Source of the DNA: Gemmatimonadaceae bacterium
Lineage (GTDB): Bacteria; Gemmatimonadota; Gemmatimonadetes; Gemmatimonadales; Gemmatimonadaceae
Assembly (NCBI GenBank): GCA_020851455.1
Contig: JADZCT010000029.1
Span: 1-64,000, forward strand
Direction: 5' to 3'
Length of the DNA: 64,000 bases
Shown here piece after piece: positions 57,759 through 64,000 of the stretch; positions within the stretch are counted from its first letter, which is position 1, and the number at the start of each line of letters is the position of its first letter. A program made the position numbers and the translations under genes. The notes beneath the pieces were generated by a model, which was not told the DNA's origin, ran no database searches, and was given only the letters and a program-made list of their open reading frames with translations.

Positions 57759-57980
57759 CTACGGCTGGTGGCCGCGGGTGTAAGGAAGGAGCGCGAGGTA
57801 GCGCGCCTTCTTGATCGCCGACGCAAGCTGTCGCTGGTGGCGGGCATCCACGCCAGACAGGCGGCTCGGCAGGATCTTGCCGTTGTCGGTGATGAAGCGG
57901 GCAAGGAACCGCTCGTCCTTGTAGTCCACGTAGCGGATTCCGGCTTCGGTGATGGGGCACGTCTTCTTCTGTCGGCGCAT
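57759..57980 (-). CDS. rpsR: 30S ribosomal protein S18
   Basis: [67 protein letters not shown]. Confidence 0.97.
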
Positions 57981-57984
57981 CGGT

Positions 57985-58350
57985 CTATTCCTCGTCCTCG
58001 TCGTCGTCCTCTGCCGCTGCGCGGCGCGCGGCGAGCTGTTCCTCGGTCATCGGCGGCGCGCCGAGTTCGTGTTCGTGCGCCGAGATCAGGTAGCGGATCA
58101 CGCTCTCGTCGAGCTTGAGCGAGCGCTCGAACTCTGGGAGCGCGCGCGGCTCGGCGTGGAACCGCGCCACGACGTAGTATCCGGTCTCCTTCGACCCGAT
58201 CTTGTAGGCGAGCTGGCGGCGGCCCCACGTGTCGAGCTTGATCTCCTGCGTGGAGCCAAGCAGGGCGTGGTGCTTCGCAAGGTGGTCGGTGACGGCGGCG
58301 TCTTCGAGCGCGGCATCGAAGATGTACACCGCCTCGTATTCACGAGACAA
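57985..58350 (-). CDS. rpsF: 30S ribosomal protein S6
   Basis: [29 protein letters not shown]...[32 protein letters not shown] start at 58350 preceded by AAGGAGG. Confidence 0.93.
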
Positions 58351-58352
58351 TG

Positions 58353-58452
58353 GGGCAATCCTCCTTTGGTCTGGTCGCCTCCCGCGGGTTGCCGACGCGG
58401 GGGGAGGTTCGGGCCAGTCGGCACATTGCCCACTGGCGTTTATGGGTTGCAA
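58353..58452 (-). promoter_or_regulatory. structured rpsF 5' leader (possible S6:S18 autoregulatory element)
   Basis: Minus strand GCCAGTG-GGCA-ATG-TGCC-GACTGGC hairpin followed by CCTCCCCCCGCG...CGCGGGAGG hairpin, upstream of the rpsF Shine-Dalgarno. Confidence 0.4.
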
Positions 58453-58549: not shown

Positions 58550-58837
58550 ATGGGATCAATAACTCTCGCCTCGCGACTGATGGCGTCGCGCGACCAGGCG
58601 TCCGCGAACGTCTCGGGCGAGTCCGTCATCCTCGGGATGAAGGACTCGACCTACTATGGGCTCGGCACCGTTGGCACCCGCATCTGGGAAATGCTCCAGG
58701 CGCCGGTCGTCCTCGGCGACGTCGTCACTGTGATGACGTCGGAGTTCGACGTGTCGCAAGAAGCCGCGGCGGCCGATCTGCTGGCGTTCGTCGCCGAGCT
58801 CGATGAGCGCGGACTGGTGGAGGTTGTTGATCCCTAG
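58550..58837 (+). CDS. PqqD-family lasso peptide leader-binding protein (B1/RRE)
   Basis: ESVILGMKDSTYYGLGTVGTRIWEMLQAPVVLGDVVTVMTSEFDVSQEAAAADLLAFVAELDERGLVE is a canonical PqqD-like fold; adjacent to B2 and C genes. Confidence 0.92.
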   Translation: MGSITLASRLMASRDQASANVSGESVILGMKDSTYYGLGTVGTRIWEMLQAPVVLGDVVTVMTSEFDVSQEAAAADLLAFVAELDERGLVEVVDP

Positions 58838-59306
58838 GGTTCCGTGGCACCGCCTCGCGACGGCCGCGGCGCTGCCGGGCGCCGAACGGTGGCTTGCCCT
58901 TCGGGCGATCGCGTGGCTTGCGCTGGTGCGACTCGCGCTGCGCTCCGGCGGCTTTGTGCGCGCGCGGCGGCTGATCGCGGGCGCCCCTCCGCTTCGCGCG
59001 CCGGGGGCGGTGGACGCCGGTATGGTGAGCCGTGCGGTGGAGCGCGCGGCCCGCGCGCTCCCGGGCAGCACCTGTCTGCACCAGGCGATCGTTGCGGCGC
59101 GGCTCTTGCGAACTGCGGGGCTGCCTGCCGAGATGACGATCGGGGTTGCCCGCCCAGCCATGGCGGGCCTGCGAACCGGCGCGGGTGACGAACCAATCGT
59201 GCCCCTCGACGCGCACGCATGGACGCGGTCGGCGGGATACGTCGTTGTCGGCAACGGCGACTTGTCGCGCTTCACGGAACTCGCAACGTTCGTCGTCGCG
59301 CCGTGA
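58803..59306 (+). CDS. lasso peptide biosynthesis B2 protein (transglutaminase-like leader protease)
   Basis: RAARALPGSTCLHQAIVAARLLRTAGLPAEMTIGV...LDAHAWTRSAGYVV (Cys/His/Asp of the B2 family). Confidence 0.92.
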   Translation: MSADWWRLLIPRVPWHRLATAAALPGAERWLALRAIAWLALVRLALRSGGFVRARRLIAGAPPLRAPGAVDAGMVSRAVERAARALPGSTCLHQAIVAARLLRTAGLPAEMTIGVARPAMAGLRTGAGDEPIVPLDAHAWTRSAGYVVVGNGDLSRFTELATFVVAP

Positions 59307-61057
59307 GCGCATTCGTTGCAGTGGTCGCGACAACGGCGGGCGAGGCGTCCCTGCCCGAGTCGTGCGTGCGCCAACTCGCACTCCCCGGGGCCGGCGCCAT
59401 CAGGTGGTACTCCGTGCCCGGCTTCTCCTGCGCCGTCGCGCCTCTTCGCACGGGCGATCCGGGGATTTTCGCCGACGGCAGCTGTGTCGTCGCTGGTGAT
59501 GTTCGGCTGGACGACCGCCGTTCGCTCATCTCCGCGCTCGGAGGATCGGTCGCGGGCGCTGGCACCGTCAGCGAGCACCTGGTACTGGTGGTCGCGGCAT
59601 ACTCCGCGTGGGGAGAAGCCGCGTTCGGGCGCCTGCGGGGTGACTTCTCCGTCGTGCTGTGGGACGCGCGAACCCGCACCGCGCATGCAGTGCGCGACGG
59701 ACTGGGGGTGCGCCCCCTCTACTATTCCGGGCTGGCCGGCGGGATGGTCGCGAGCAACGTGATCAACGCGGTGCGCGCGCACCCGGCGGTGCCGGATACG
59801 CTGCATGCGCCGGCGGTTGCGTCGTTTCTCGCGTGTGGATTCAACCTCGATTCCACGACCTCCATGTTTGCTTCGATTGCCCGCCTCGCGCCGGGCACGC
59901 ACCTCACGGTTGACGCCGACGTCGGCGCGACCCGCATCGCCCGGCACTGGTCAATCCCGGACCCGGCGCCGATCCGGTTTCGTAGGGCAGACGATTACGT
60001 CGAGCGTTACCGTGATCTCCTCGGCCAGGCCGTGGCCGACCGCGTGGATCCTGCCGGGACCATGATCCTTCTGAGCGGCGGGCTGGATTCGACTTCGATT
60101 GCGGCGACGGCGCGCCGTATTGCTCCGGATGCGCGCCTGCATGCCTTGACGATGCGCGAACCCCGTGCAGAAACCGCCGCAGATATGGCCCTCGCAACCG
60201 AAGTCGCGCAGTGGCTCGGCCTGCCGCACATTCGCGTCGAGGAGTTGAGTGACACCCGTCTGGATGCTGCCGCCTCGCTTCCCGAACCGCTGGTCGGCAT
60301 GGGCATGGCGGGCTTCCAGGGGATGCTCGCGAAGGTTGCACCAGTTGCCAGCGTGGTGCTTGGCGGGGAAGACGGTGACGCTCTCTTCCACCCTGCTGGA
60401 CTGGCCGCGATGCTCCGCACGGATTCCGTGGGGCGAACGGCGTTGCGCATCCTTGCCTACATGATCCGGCACGGGCGGCGGCCGTACATGGGTTTCTGGC
60501 TCGCGCGTCGCCTCAGAGGGAGCCAAGGGGGCCGGCTGCCGCAGTCCCCTCCATGGATTCGCCCCGCGGTTCGTGCGCTGGTTCCCGCCGATACAGCCAC
60601 GGTCACGAGCCACCGTGCCCGCCCGGAAGCCGCCCGATCCCTCACGAGCCCTCTCTGGCAGGCCGTCCATGCAGGCGCCGACCGTTCGTATCACGGTGCG
60701 ACGGTCGAGTTCCGCTGGCCGCTGCTCGACCAGCGGCTGATCGAGTTCGTGTTTGCGATACCGAGCATACCGTGGTGCCAGCAGAAGTATCTGGTGCGCC
60801 GCGCGTTCGCGGCCGATCTTCCCCCCGCCGTGGTCGCGCGGCCCAAGACTCCAGCGCGCGGCTACCTGGCAACCGTGGTGCGGGGGTGGCAGGAGCTGAC
60901 GGGCGCATCGCTCCCGCAGCTCGACTCCCGCACACTCGAGTACGTTGACCCGGTGGGCCTCGGGGCGGCGCTGCGCTCGCCAGACCTCGACGCCGTCATT
61001 GCGGGGTGGCGCGCGCTAGCGCTCGACCAGTGGGTCCGGCGTGCCGAGTGTCCGTAA
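59303..61057 (+). CDS. lasso cyclase (asparagine synthetase-like, C protein)
   Basis: ILLSGGLDSTSIAATARRI, VLGGEDGDALF, EFRWPLLDQRLIEFVFAIP; no N-terminal glutaminase Cys; GTG start overlaps the B2 stop. Confidence 0.92.
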   Translation: MSAFVAVVATTAGEASLPESCVRQLALPGAGAIRWYSVPGFSCAVAPLRTGDPGIFADGSCVVAGDVRLDDRRSLISALGGSVAGAGTVSEHLVLVVAAYSAWGEAAFGRLRGDFSVVLWDARTRTAHAVRDGLGVRPLYYSGLAGGMVASNVINAVRAHPAVPDTLHAPAVASFLACGFNLDSTTSMFASIARLAPGTHLTVDADVGATRIARHWSIPDPAPIRFRRADDYVERYRDLLGQAVADRVDPAGTMILLSGGLDSTSIAATARRIAPDARLHALTMREPRAETAADMALATEVAQWLGLPHIRVEELSDTRLDAAASLPEPLVGMGMAGFQGMLAKVAPVASVVLGGEDGDALFHPAGLAAMLRTDSVGRTALRILAYMIRHGRRPYMGFWLARRLRGSQGGRLPQSPPWIRPAVRALVPADTATVTSHRARPEAARSLTSPLWQAVHAGADRSYHGATVEFRWPLLDQRLIEFVFAIPSIPWCQQKYLVRRAFAADLPPAVVARPKTPARGYLATVVRGWQELTGASLPQLDSRTLEYVDPVGLGAALRSPDLDAVIAGWRALALDQWVRRAECP

Positions 61058-61123
61058 GAGGTGAACCACGCCTGCGCCGTGGGCTCTGTGGCGCAGGCCT
61101 CCGTGGTCGTTACTATTGTGGCT

Positions 61124-61351
61124 ATGGAACAGCAGCGGCCTCCGGCTACCGCCCCAGGCGCGTCCGTGCGGGCGGCACCGCTCCATGCCACGACTCCCGC
61201 GGACGGCCCGGGGCGCGCTGGCGCCACGCGCATGCCATACACGCGTCCCGTGCTGGTGACGCTCGGGTCGGTTGCGAACCTGACGAGAAGGGTGGACTTT
61301 AGCGGCCATCTCGATGGCGGTTGGTTTATTTTCCCGCTGCGCACGGGCTGA
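61124..61351 (+). CDS. lasso peptide precursor (A); start uncertain (61061, 61124 or 61232)
   Basis: MPYTRPVLVTLGSVANLTR|RVDFSGHLDGGWFIFPLRTG has the YxxPxL...G...LT leader motif, 17 residues from Tyr to the predicted cleavage site, and an Asp at core position 9. Confidence 0.85.
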   Translation: MEQQRPPATAPGASVRAAPLHATTPADGPGRAGATRMPYTRPVLVTLGSVANLTRRVDFSGHLDGGWFIFPLRTG

Positions 61352-61430
61352 CGGGCCGTCGCCGGGGCTTTGCCTGGCCTGCTTGACCTGACGAATCACT
61401 CCCCCCAAGGACGGCAGGATCGCACACTAT

Positions 61431-62372
61431 TTGGTTCACGGCGTGCGGGTGCGCGTCAACGGGCTCCTGCCGCTCGACGCCGCGGCGGTGCCCGAGGGGC
61501 CAGCGGAGGTCTTGGCTCACGCCGGGGCCGCACCGGACTGGGACCTGGAGTCGGCTGATCCTGGTCGCTTCCTCGTTTCTGCCGCCGACAACGACGCAGA
61601 CCTCGCGGAGGTCGCGTGGATGCGGGATGGCGCGGGCATCCGGTTGCGATCAACCGAAGGAGCGACATTCTGGATTTCCCGCGCGCTCGACGAGGTCTGG
61701 CTGCGCTGGAGGCCGCCGCTCACCGAGGTTGATGCCGCGCACTTCCTGCTCCAGCCCGTGCTTACGCTGCTGCTACGGCTCCGAGGGGACCTGGTGCTTC
61801 ACGCCAGCGGTGTCGTGTTTGGGAACTTCGCTGCGATAGTCTGCGGGCACCCGGGGGCGGGGAAGTCAACGGCCGCGGGTGCGTGCCTGCGTGCAGGAGC
61901 GTCGCTTCTTTCAGACGACGCCGTTCGCGTCGAGCCGGGTGATAGGGGCTGGATCGCGCACCCGGGCAACGCCAGTTGCCGCGTATGGGACAAGACTGCC
62001 GGAGTCCTGCTTGGCGACCATACGCTTGCCCCGGAGTTCTCGGCAACGTGGCGCAAGCGGGTGATCAGGCCGGCGCAGCTTGGCGCCCGGGCGGCTGCGT
62101 CGCCCGCGCGGGTGGGAGTCGTATGCGTGCTGGGAGATCGTACCGGGGAGCCCGAGCCGGCCCTCGTTCAGCTGCGCGGCTTCGAGGCGGTGCAGGCGCT
62201 CATCCCGCACACGATGCCGGCGTGGCTTCAGGACGGCGCGCTGCGGGCCAGGGAGATGCGGGCACTCGCGGCGCTTGCGGCATCGGTGCCCGTTGTGCGG
62301 CTCGTGGTGCCGCGGGACCCGGCCGCGCTCCCGCTGGTTGCGGATCTGGTTCGCGATGCCGCCGGCGTCTGA
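61431..62372 (+). CDS. HprK-related serine kinase associated with lasso peptide cluster
   Basis: LVLHASGVVFGNFAAIVCGHPGAGKSTAAGACLRAGASLLSDDAVRVEPGDRGW; TTG start. Confidence 0.85.
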   Translation: MVHGVRVRVNGLLPLDAAAVPEGPAEVLAHAGAAPDWDLESADPGRFLVSAADNDADLAEVAWMRDGAGIRLRSTEGATFWISRALDEVWLRWRPPLTEVDAAHFLLQPVLTLLLRLRGDLVLHASGVVFGNFAAIVCGHPGAGKSTAAGACLRAGASLLSDDAVRVEPGDRGWIAHPGNASCRVWDKTAGVLLGDHTLAPEFSATWRKRVIRPAQLGARAAASPARVGVVCVLGDRTGEPEPALVQLRGFEAVQALIPHTMPAWLQDGALRAREMRALAALAASVPVVRLVVPRDPAALPLVADLVRDAAGV

Positions 62373-63528
62373 CCACTTCGACCTCATTCGCGCGTGCTGC
62401 ATTCACTTTGTGCACGGCGGCGTGGGGGCGGGCGGTGGTGGCGGAACGGGCAGGGAAGAAATCGCGGCGCGCGTCGCTGAGGTCGCCGACTGGGAGGGCT
62501 TGGTGCGCGCTGCTGCGTTGCACGGCGTTGCGCCGCTGGTTGCGCGCGAAGCCGTGAGTGTGGCGGGCGATGCGATCCGCGCCGACGGCAGGGACATTCT
62601 GCGGCACGCTGAGCGGCGCGCAGCGCTCAACGGGCTGGCCGCCGTGCAGCAGATGGCGGGGCTGGCGCGTGGGTTCGAGGAAGCGGGGGTTGCCGCGCTT
62701 CCGTACAAGGGTCCCCTCCTTGCGCTCGACGCCTACGGCGACGTCGCGATGCGGGAATACTTGGACCTCGACTTCGTCGTGCCGCCCGCGGATGTCGAGC
62801 GCGCCGTGGCGGTGCTCGCCCAGGCCGGATACTCGCCGGCTGGCCGCCAGGACTGGCGTGCCGCGCGTTTCGGGAACGAGTGGACGGCGCAGGTGAGCTT
62901 CACCTGCCCTGGCGGAGCGCTGCCGGTCGAGCTCCACTGGAGGTTCTGCGACCTGAAGTTGCCGTGGAATCCCGATGTCACGGCGGTCTTCGCGAGGGCC
63001 AGGGAGCGCGGACTCGCGGGCGCGCGCGTGCGCATTCCCTCCCGCGAAGACCAGTTGCTGCTCGTCCTGTTGCACGCCGCCCGGCACGCGTGGGACCGGC
63101 TGGATGCATTCGCCTGCGCGGGCGCGCTCCTCGCTGGCGGCGTGGATGCCCCGGAGCTGATCGAGCGCGCGGCATCGGTGGGCGGAACGCGCGCATTGCT
63201 CGTTGGCATGGCTGCGGCGTCGCGCCTCATCGGCGTGGCGCTGCCGGCGGAAATCCGCGCGGGCATTGCAGCCGACCGAGCCGTCGCGCCGCTAGCCGCG
63301 GACGCCGAGGCGCGCGCGCGGCGCGGAGGCGGCGATGCGCGCCGCCAAGCCCGGCTTCACCTTGCGCTCCTCAGCTCCGCGGGCGCCCGGGCAAGGTATC
63401 TCTCGCTCGCCGCCATCACGCCGACCGCGGCGGACGTAGAGGCGGTGCCACTTCCCGGCGCGCTGCGGTTCTTCTACCCCGTGGTTCGCGTGGCGCGAAT
63501 CGCGCTTCGCGGCGTCGCTAGACGTTGA
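62356..63528 (+). CDS. nucleotidyltransferase family protein (NTP_transf_5-like)
   Basis: [45 protein letters not shown]...VELHWRFCD; overlaps the kinase gene by 17 nt. Confidence 0.85.
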
Positions 63529-64000
63529 AGCGGAAGAGCATCACGTCGCCGTCCTGCACGACGTAGTCCTTGCCCTCGCTTCTGACGACTCCCCTCTCGC
63601 GGGCGCCCTTCCACCCGTCGCACGCCACGAAGTCGTCGTAGCTCGCGGTCTCGGCGCGTATGAATCCCCGTTCGAAGTCGGTGTGGATGACGCCCGCCGC
63701 CCTGGGCGCCGTGTCGCCGCTGTGGATGGTCCACGCGCGGACTTCCTTCTCGCCCGCCGTGAAGTAAGTCTGCAGTCCCAGGAGGTGGTAGCCGGCGCGG
63801 ATGATGCGATCGAGTCCCGCCGACTCGATCCCGAGCGAGGCAAGGAACTCGGCACGGTCACCCGGGGCGAGCTGGGCCAGTTCGGCCTCGATCTTCGCAG
63901 AGAAGGTCACGACTTCCGCAGGTTCACGGTCGCGCGCGATTGCCGCGCGCAATGCCTGCACGTGAGGGCCTTCGCTGCCTTCGAGTTCCGCATCCGTGAC
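63518..64000 (-). CDS. ychF: YchF redox-regulated ATPase, C-terminal part (runs off the window)
   Basis: [92 protein letters not shown]. Confidence 0.96.

Follow-up and report, generated by a model that had tools for sequence, protein, structure and literature searches.

Fusilassin and lariatin are lasso peptides with Trp1 and Gly1 cores, respectively, whose leaders share the Tyr-to-Thr spacing of the precursor described here, and both lack kinase and N genes. Lasso rings in the literature comprise 7-9 residues, and that of paeninodin comprises nine. The paeninodin and pseudomycoidin clusters of Bacillota encode B1, B2, C and a kinase K, accompanied in pseudomycoidin by N, and they also contain a transporter gene and mostly WxxP leaders. 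Paeninodin-type kinases phosphorylate the C-terminal Ser, and PsmN adds hexoses onto the phosphate of pseudomycoidin (reviews PMC9266682, PMC8498205). The Bsf cluster of Bradymonas sediminis has split B1/B2, an HprK-like kinase, an N gene, a YxxPxL leader and ribosomal-protein genes at one border, and its precursor BsfA (Ile at -2, Gly1-Asp8, phospho-Ser3) was cut in vitro by its own B1/B2 17 residues after Tyr, as measured by mass spectrometry; the Tyr(-17)/Thr(-2) ruler was described as general (PMC10368454). In addition, metanodin from a soil metagenome combines a non-canonical first residue (Asn1) with Thr at -2 and an MS-supported 9-residue ring in a proteobacterial ABC-type cluster (PMC12670498). 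The LPP family shares the RRE, HprK-like kinase, NTP transferase and YxxP leader, but has no cyclase and uses a signal-peptidase-like protease instead of B2 (PMC13381572).

The window, which is the whole stretch of 64,000 nucleotides analysed here, comes from an uncultured bacterium of the Gemmatimonadaceae (Gemmatimonadota) and contains at 58550-63528 a real and complete lasso-peptide locus of the kinase and nucleotidyltransferase (paeninodin/pseudomycoidin/Bsf-like) kind, a variant within the already known class of phosphorylated lasso peptides. The order is B1-B2-C-A-K-N, compact and on one strand, with the key motifs intact (Table 1), and the genes, these motifs, the precursor family and its conserved residues are directly established. 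The split B1/B2, HprK-like kinase, N gene, YxxPxL leader and ribosomal-protein border of the Bsf cluster recur in the window; unlike BsfA, its precursor has Thr at -2, a predicted Arg1-Asp9 ring and a C-terminal Thr. In contrast to the clusters of Bacillota, no ABC transporter gene was found within the B1-B2-C-A-K-N cluster. The genome itself holds one lasso-type B2, one strong cyclase match and one such precursor, and no second one was found elsewhere in it.

Table 1. Features of the lasso-peptide locus and its borders, numbered by position in the window
Feature	Position	Strand	Evidence and remarks
rpsR (S18) and rpsF (S6)	57759..58452	-	left border, divergent; neighbours shared with about 25 relatives
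B1, RRE/PqqD-like leader-binding chaperone	58550..58837	+	Pfam PqqD 1.3e-14
B2, cysteine leader peptidase (transglutaminase-like)	58803..59306	+	Cys91 and His138; Pfam Transglut_core3; NCBIfam lasso_biosyn_B2
C, asparagine-synthetase-like macrolactam cyclase	59303..61057	+	Pfam Asn_synthase 3e-31 and GATase_7
A, lasso precursor	61124..61351	+	start codon uncertain: 61124, 61166 or 61232
Leader recognition stretch YTRPVLVTLGSVANLTR	61238..61288	+	Tyr(-17), Pro(-14), Leu(-12), Thr(-2)
Predicted core RVDFSGHLDGGWFIFPLRTG	61289..61348	+	Asp9 as ring acceptor, 61313-61315; Thr19 as predicted kinase site, 61343-61345
K, HPr-kinase-like precursor kinase	61431..62372	+	residues H124 G139 G142 G144 K145 S146 D162 D163
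N, nucleotidyltransferase-family protein, PsmN type	62356..63528	+	Pfam NTP_transf_5 (PF14907) 8.4e-42
ychF 3' end	63518..64000	-	right border, convergent; neighbour shared with relatives; adjoins rpsF where the cluster is missing

The features by which lasso enzymes are recognised are present in all three proteins, namely a PqqD-like B1, a transglutaminase-like B2 with conserved Cys and His, and an Asn-synthetase-like C. B1 has sequence matches in the PDB (TbiB1 and one other lasso B1) and scores 3.3e-19 with the NCBIfam model lasso_PqqD_Bac, under that model's curated cut-off. Its strand Tyr35 (Y35) is invariant in 28 of 28 relatives and appears by alignment to correspond to the Tyr proposed as the Thr(-2) contact in FusE and BsfB1 (PMC10368454). 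B2 reaches 63.8 bits with lasso_biosyn_B2 (cut-off 33), and its invariant positions across 23 sequences are C91, L92, G114 and A137-W140, His138 included. A fold search with its structure model (pLDDT 88) returned no significant PDB match, only weak ones to transglutaminases and cysteine proteases, and a PDB sequence search with B2 and K gave no match for either. The top NCBIfam model for C is a lasso cyclase (3.1e-50, yet under the curated cut-off), and its SGGxDS loop is invariant among relatives. Judged by these conserved motif residues, the enzymes of the cluster look functional.

K carries the H-G-G-G-K-S-D-D motif of HprK-like kinases, in which the spacing of the eight residues is identical to that of BsfK H148-G163-G166-G168-K169-S170-D186-D187 (PMC10368454), and it matches the NCBIfam model HprK_rel_A at 3e-07, under the cut-off. 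Beside it lies the PF14907 nucleotidyltransferase gene N, as in pseudomycoidin, although its likeness to PsmN is drawn from the reviews; K118, G119 and D137 x D139 are its invariant residues.

The initial annotation had placed a lasso precursor in a short ORF (61061-61351) after the cyclase gene, with 39 C-terminal residues and a leader of the form YxxPxL...G...LT, and each of these statements agrees with our reading. The ORF does encode the precursor, but 61061 is simply the most upstream GTG, and translation could also start at ATG 61124 (75 aa), GTG 61166 (61 aa) or ATG 61232 (39 aa); in relatives, Met usually lies about 20-25 residues ahead of the Tyr/Trp, to which 61166 is the nearest equivalent. 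A leave-one-out profile of 46 relatives, which did not include the window sequence itself, retrieved A at E=2.4e-11 against 0.12 for the runner-up among 1195 window frames, which rules out a chance ORF. The identity as a lasso precursor is further supported by the complete B1-B2-C-A cluster, the family of relatives and the invariant ring Asp, and A has both the YxxPxL leader and the penultimate leader Thr typical of the class. NCBIfam lasso_leader_L3 (NF033521) also points to A, at 14.9-16.6 bits with a cut-off of 19. A promoter scan around the gene found no site, and the one terminator-like hairpin within the core-coding DNA is probably due to chance. A plasmid search with two precursors returned no match.

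A belongs to a large undescribed precursor family: about 70 related precursors were collected, known here from uncultured genomes only, and no description of it was found in the open-access literature. A 34-row alignment shows no variation at the leader Pro, Gly and Thr or at the ring Asp. The cyclase is present in at least 33 of 180 Gemmatimonadaceae genomes, and its close relatives in named GTDB genomes are from uncultured Gemmatimonadota, several of them named Gemmatimonadaceae. Most loci on sufficiently long contigs retain B1, C, A, K and N, and usually B2, and in about 25 loci the cluster adjoins rpsF-rpsR-rplI and/or ychF, as it does in the window. In four cluster-less congeners (L164, L165, L167, L168) rpsF adjoins ychF with gaps of about 0.1 to 1.1 kb, while in a fifth (G024, L166:7514-8002) B1 and part of N are all that is left, a deletion scar showing that the cluster was formerly present in that lineage. 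From this pattern we infer a fixed locus with repeated loss of the cluster.

In the account of the core start that follows, T denotes the leader Thr, which by construction of the precursor search pattern lies at Tyr/Trp+15, and T+n lies n residues after it; the 73 collected precursors all have a C-terminal Thr/Ser, and a few come from other cluster types later set aside. The initial annotation had proposed cleavage 17 residues past Tyr with Thr at -2 and a nine-residue R1-D9 ring. This register is still the best single prediction, favoured because BsfA, a kinase-type precursor of Bradymonas, was cut at the same ruler position; however, it is a prediction and not a result, and the spacing of the Asp shifts in relatives. 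Arg1 had also been called very unusual, which holds for known lasso peptides: residue 1 is Gly in 62%, Ala in 16% and Leu in 7% (PMC7549694), no precedent for Arg was found in the literature, and Asn1 was reported only in 2025 (PMC12670498). In this family, however, the only residues seen at T+2 are T, K, A, R, S, N, V and G; 27 of 73 precursors carry Lys/Arg there, and a basic first residue would therefore be a family trait and not an oddity of the window.

Ring size is less easily accommodated. A different aligned core start together with no conserved Asp, which the initial annotation had named as evidence against it, is not what the homologues display: the Asp is conserved, though its spacing from Thr varies, being T+10 in 42 relatives, T+11 in 22 (L054, TKSVGSSGSVADGG) and T+12 in four (L006, TRRVGTNVNALRD). 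A start at T+2 gives rings of 9/10/11 residues, T+3 gives 8/9/10 and T+4 gives 7/8/9, which places the window Asp at core position 9, 8 or 7 and, with the standard start, that of relatives as far as 10-11. Therefore, no single fixed start except T+4 keeps every ring at 7-9, which leaves three options: rings larger than nine, a cut that departs from Thr(-2) across this family, or a cut whose position differs from one member to the next. Over positions T+2 to T+4 the T-anchored profile scores better in 20 of 22 T+11 and in all four T+12 precursors, which places the extra ring residues beyond T+4 and away from the leader/core junction. Choosing the start by conservation was not decisive, as the entropies are similar (2.64, 2.48 and 2.75 bits at T+2, T+3 and T+4). 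A second Gemmatimonadota precursor group has Asp at T+9, so that a cut with Thr at -2 gives its members rings of the usual 8 residues, a point in favour of this cut. We regard it as possible, though on balance doubtful, that the ordinary cut applies family-wide, with basic or non-canonical first residues, rings of nine to eleven residues, and phospho-hexosylation of a Thr near the C-terminus. For the window, where each of the three starts gives a ring of permitted size, the registers rank as R1-D9, V1-D8 and D1-D7.

Cleavage one residue later in the same pathway, after the RR pair, would put Thr at -3 and yield the core VDFSGHLDGGWFIFPLRTG, in which the ring joins V1 to D8. Val is the most frequent residue at T+3 (38/73), a basic residue precedes this cut in many relatives, and rings would have 8 or 9 residues in all but four. 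We nevertheless consider it unlikely, since it violates the Tyr(-17)/Thr(-2) spacing found for BsfA and called general (PMC10368454), Val1 is untypical, and the T+9 precursors of the phylum would be left with 7-residue rings. The hand-calculated masses for both forms were right, with recomputed [M+H]+ of 2259.146 (20-mer minus water) and 2103.045 (19-mer). It is improbable that maturation stops part-way, at a phosphopeptide that is linear or branched-cyclic but not threaded, like those of the LPP family, or that no product is made. Hosts carrying Bsf or one of several metagenomic clusters did not make a mature lasso (PMC10368454, PMC9064862, PMC12670498), and LPPs with their RRE, kinase and NTP transferase are thought to remain linear (PMC13381572). 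Against this, the family retains the cyclase gene and the invariant acidic residue, and the window cluster has B2 where LPP clusters employ a signal-peptidase-like protease. Lastly, a cut after T+3 (Thr at -4) would give DFSGHLDGGWFIFPLRTG with a D1-D7 ring, requiring Asp1 in the window and 13 others, a first residue not known to us from any lasso peptide. Although no other fixed start keeps the rings of the whole class within 7-9, and most relatives carry Gly, Ser, Ala or Thr at T+4 (their cores would begin with Gly/Ser/Asp/Ala), with Gly and Ala being usual first residues (PMC7549694), it conflicts with the ruler and would leave the T+9 group with 6-residue rings, making it the least probable of all.

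Returning to the R1-D9 register, we infer the site of cleavage, ring closure, threading, phosphorylation, glycosylation and the sequence of these events as follows. B1 would bind the YxxPxL leader and present the precursor, and K, aided by B1, would phosphorylate Thr19 in the RTG end. B2 would then cleave between both arginines to release the core given in Table 1, C would activate Asp9 to close the Arg1-Asp9 ring around the tail, the bulky W12, F13 and F15 (candidate plug residues) would hold the threaded tail, and N would attach one or two hexoses to the phosphate. Paeninodin/pseudomycoidin chemistry and the C-terminal Thr/Ser of the precursors, which lies 0-3 residues from the end and is mostly preceded by Arg/Lys, together suggest a phosphorylated and then hexosylated Thr19. 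Several points speak against the scheme: Arg as residue 1 lacks a precedent, as noted above, the window precursor ends in LRTG with a penultimate Thr, whereas known C-terminal lasso kinases target a last-residue Ser (BsfK: Ser3), and relatives with Asp at T+11/T+12 would need 10- or 11-residue rings, beyond the reported 7-9. On balance, we rate the scheme as a whole, from the cut before R1 to the phospho-hexosylated Thr19, slightly above an even chance.

If the standard cut holds, the family would contain lasso rings initiated by Arg/Lys, and close relatives would have rings of more than nine residues, neither of which we found reported. If it fails, the Thr(-2)/Tyr(-17) rule for core prediction breaks down throughout the family, and the cores currently predicted for its members are wrong.

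Several further features of the relatives were observed. Most of them have a gene for a class I methyltransferase (e.g. L037:6626-7615; carriers include L033, L035, L036, L037, L041, L044-L054 and L060) whose C-terminal domain is PRMT-like (PF22528) and which, judged by eye, ends in a PqqD-like domain; the enzyme might methylate the conserved C-terminal Arg/Lys. The window cluster has no full-length match to it, its own genome gave short partial matches on another contig, and no lasso literature on such an enzyme was found. The leaders of one genus (L041-L044, L046-L049) have WxxP in place of YxxP, a form described for Bacillota paeninodin-like precursors (PMC13381572). In-frame stops occur in the B2 of the closest relative (G032:C15:32160-32504) and in one cyclase (G036:C11:14728-16245), which are either pseudogenes or assembly errors. 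In two other genera no B2 was found in the locus (G143, G147, G141, G140, G134, G104, G101; L045, L052, L053, L056-L058, L062), and most genomes of this kind have B2 elsewhere, at times inside a second, different lasso cluster (L145, L153). A second lasso cluster type in Gemmatimonadota (L136, L137, L140-L143, L147, L148, L150, L151, L153) has longer, often Cys-containing cores (e.g. TQVGFNGTTDGF), whose first residues under the Thr(-2) rule include Val, Ala, Tyr and Trp. Finally, orphan precursors (L126, L128-L133; e.g. YTPPRLTIYGSLADLTATVGTKGRRDGRRSRRRTGY), several per genome in genus g20, lie in stretches where no biosynthetic gene was recognised, and may be substrates of enzymes acting in trans.
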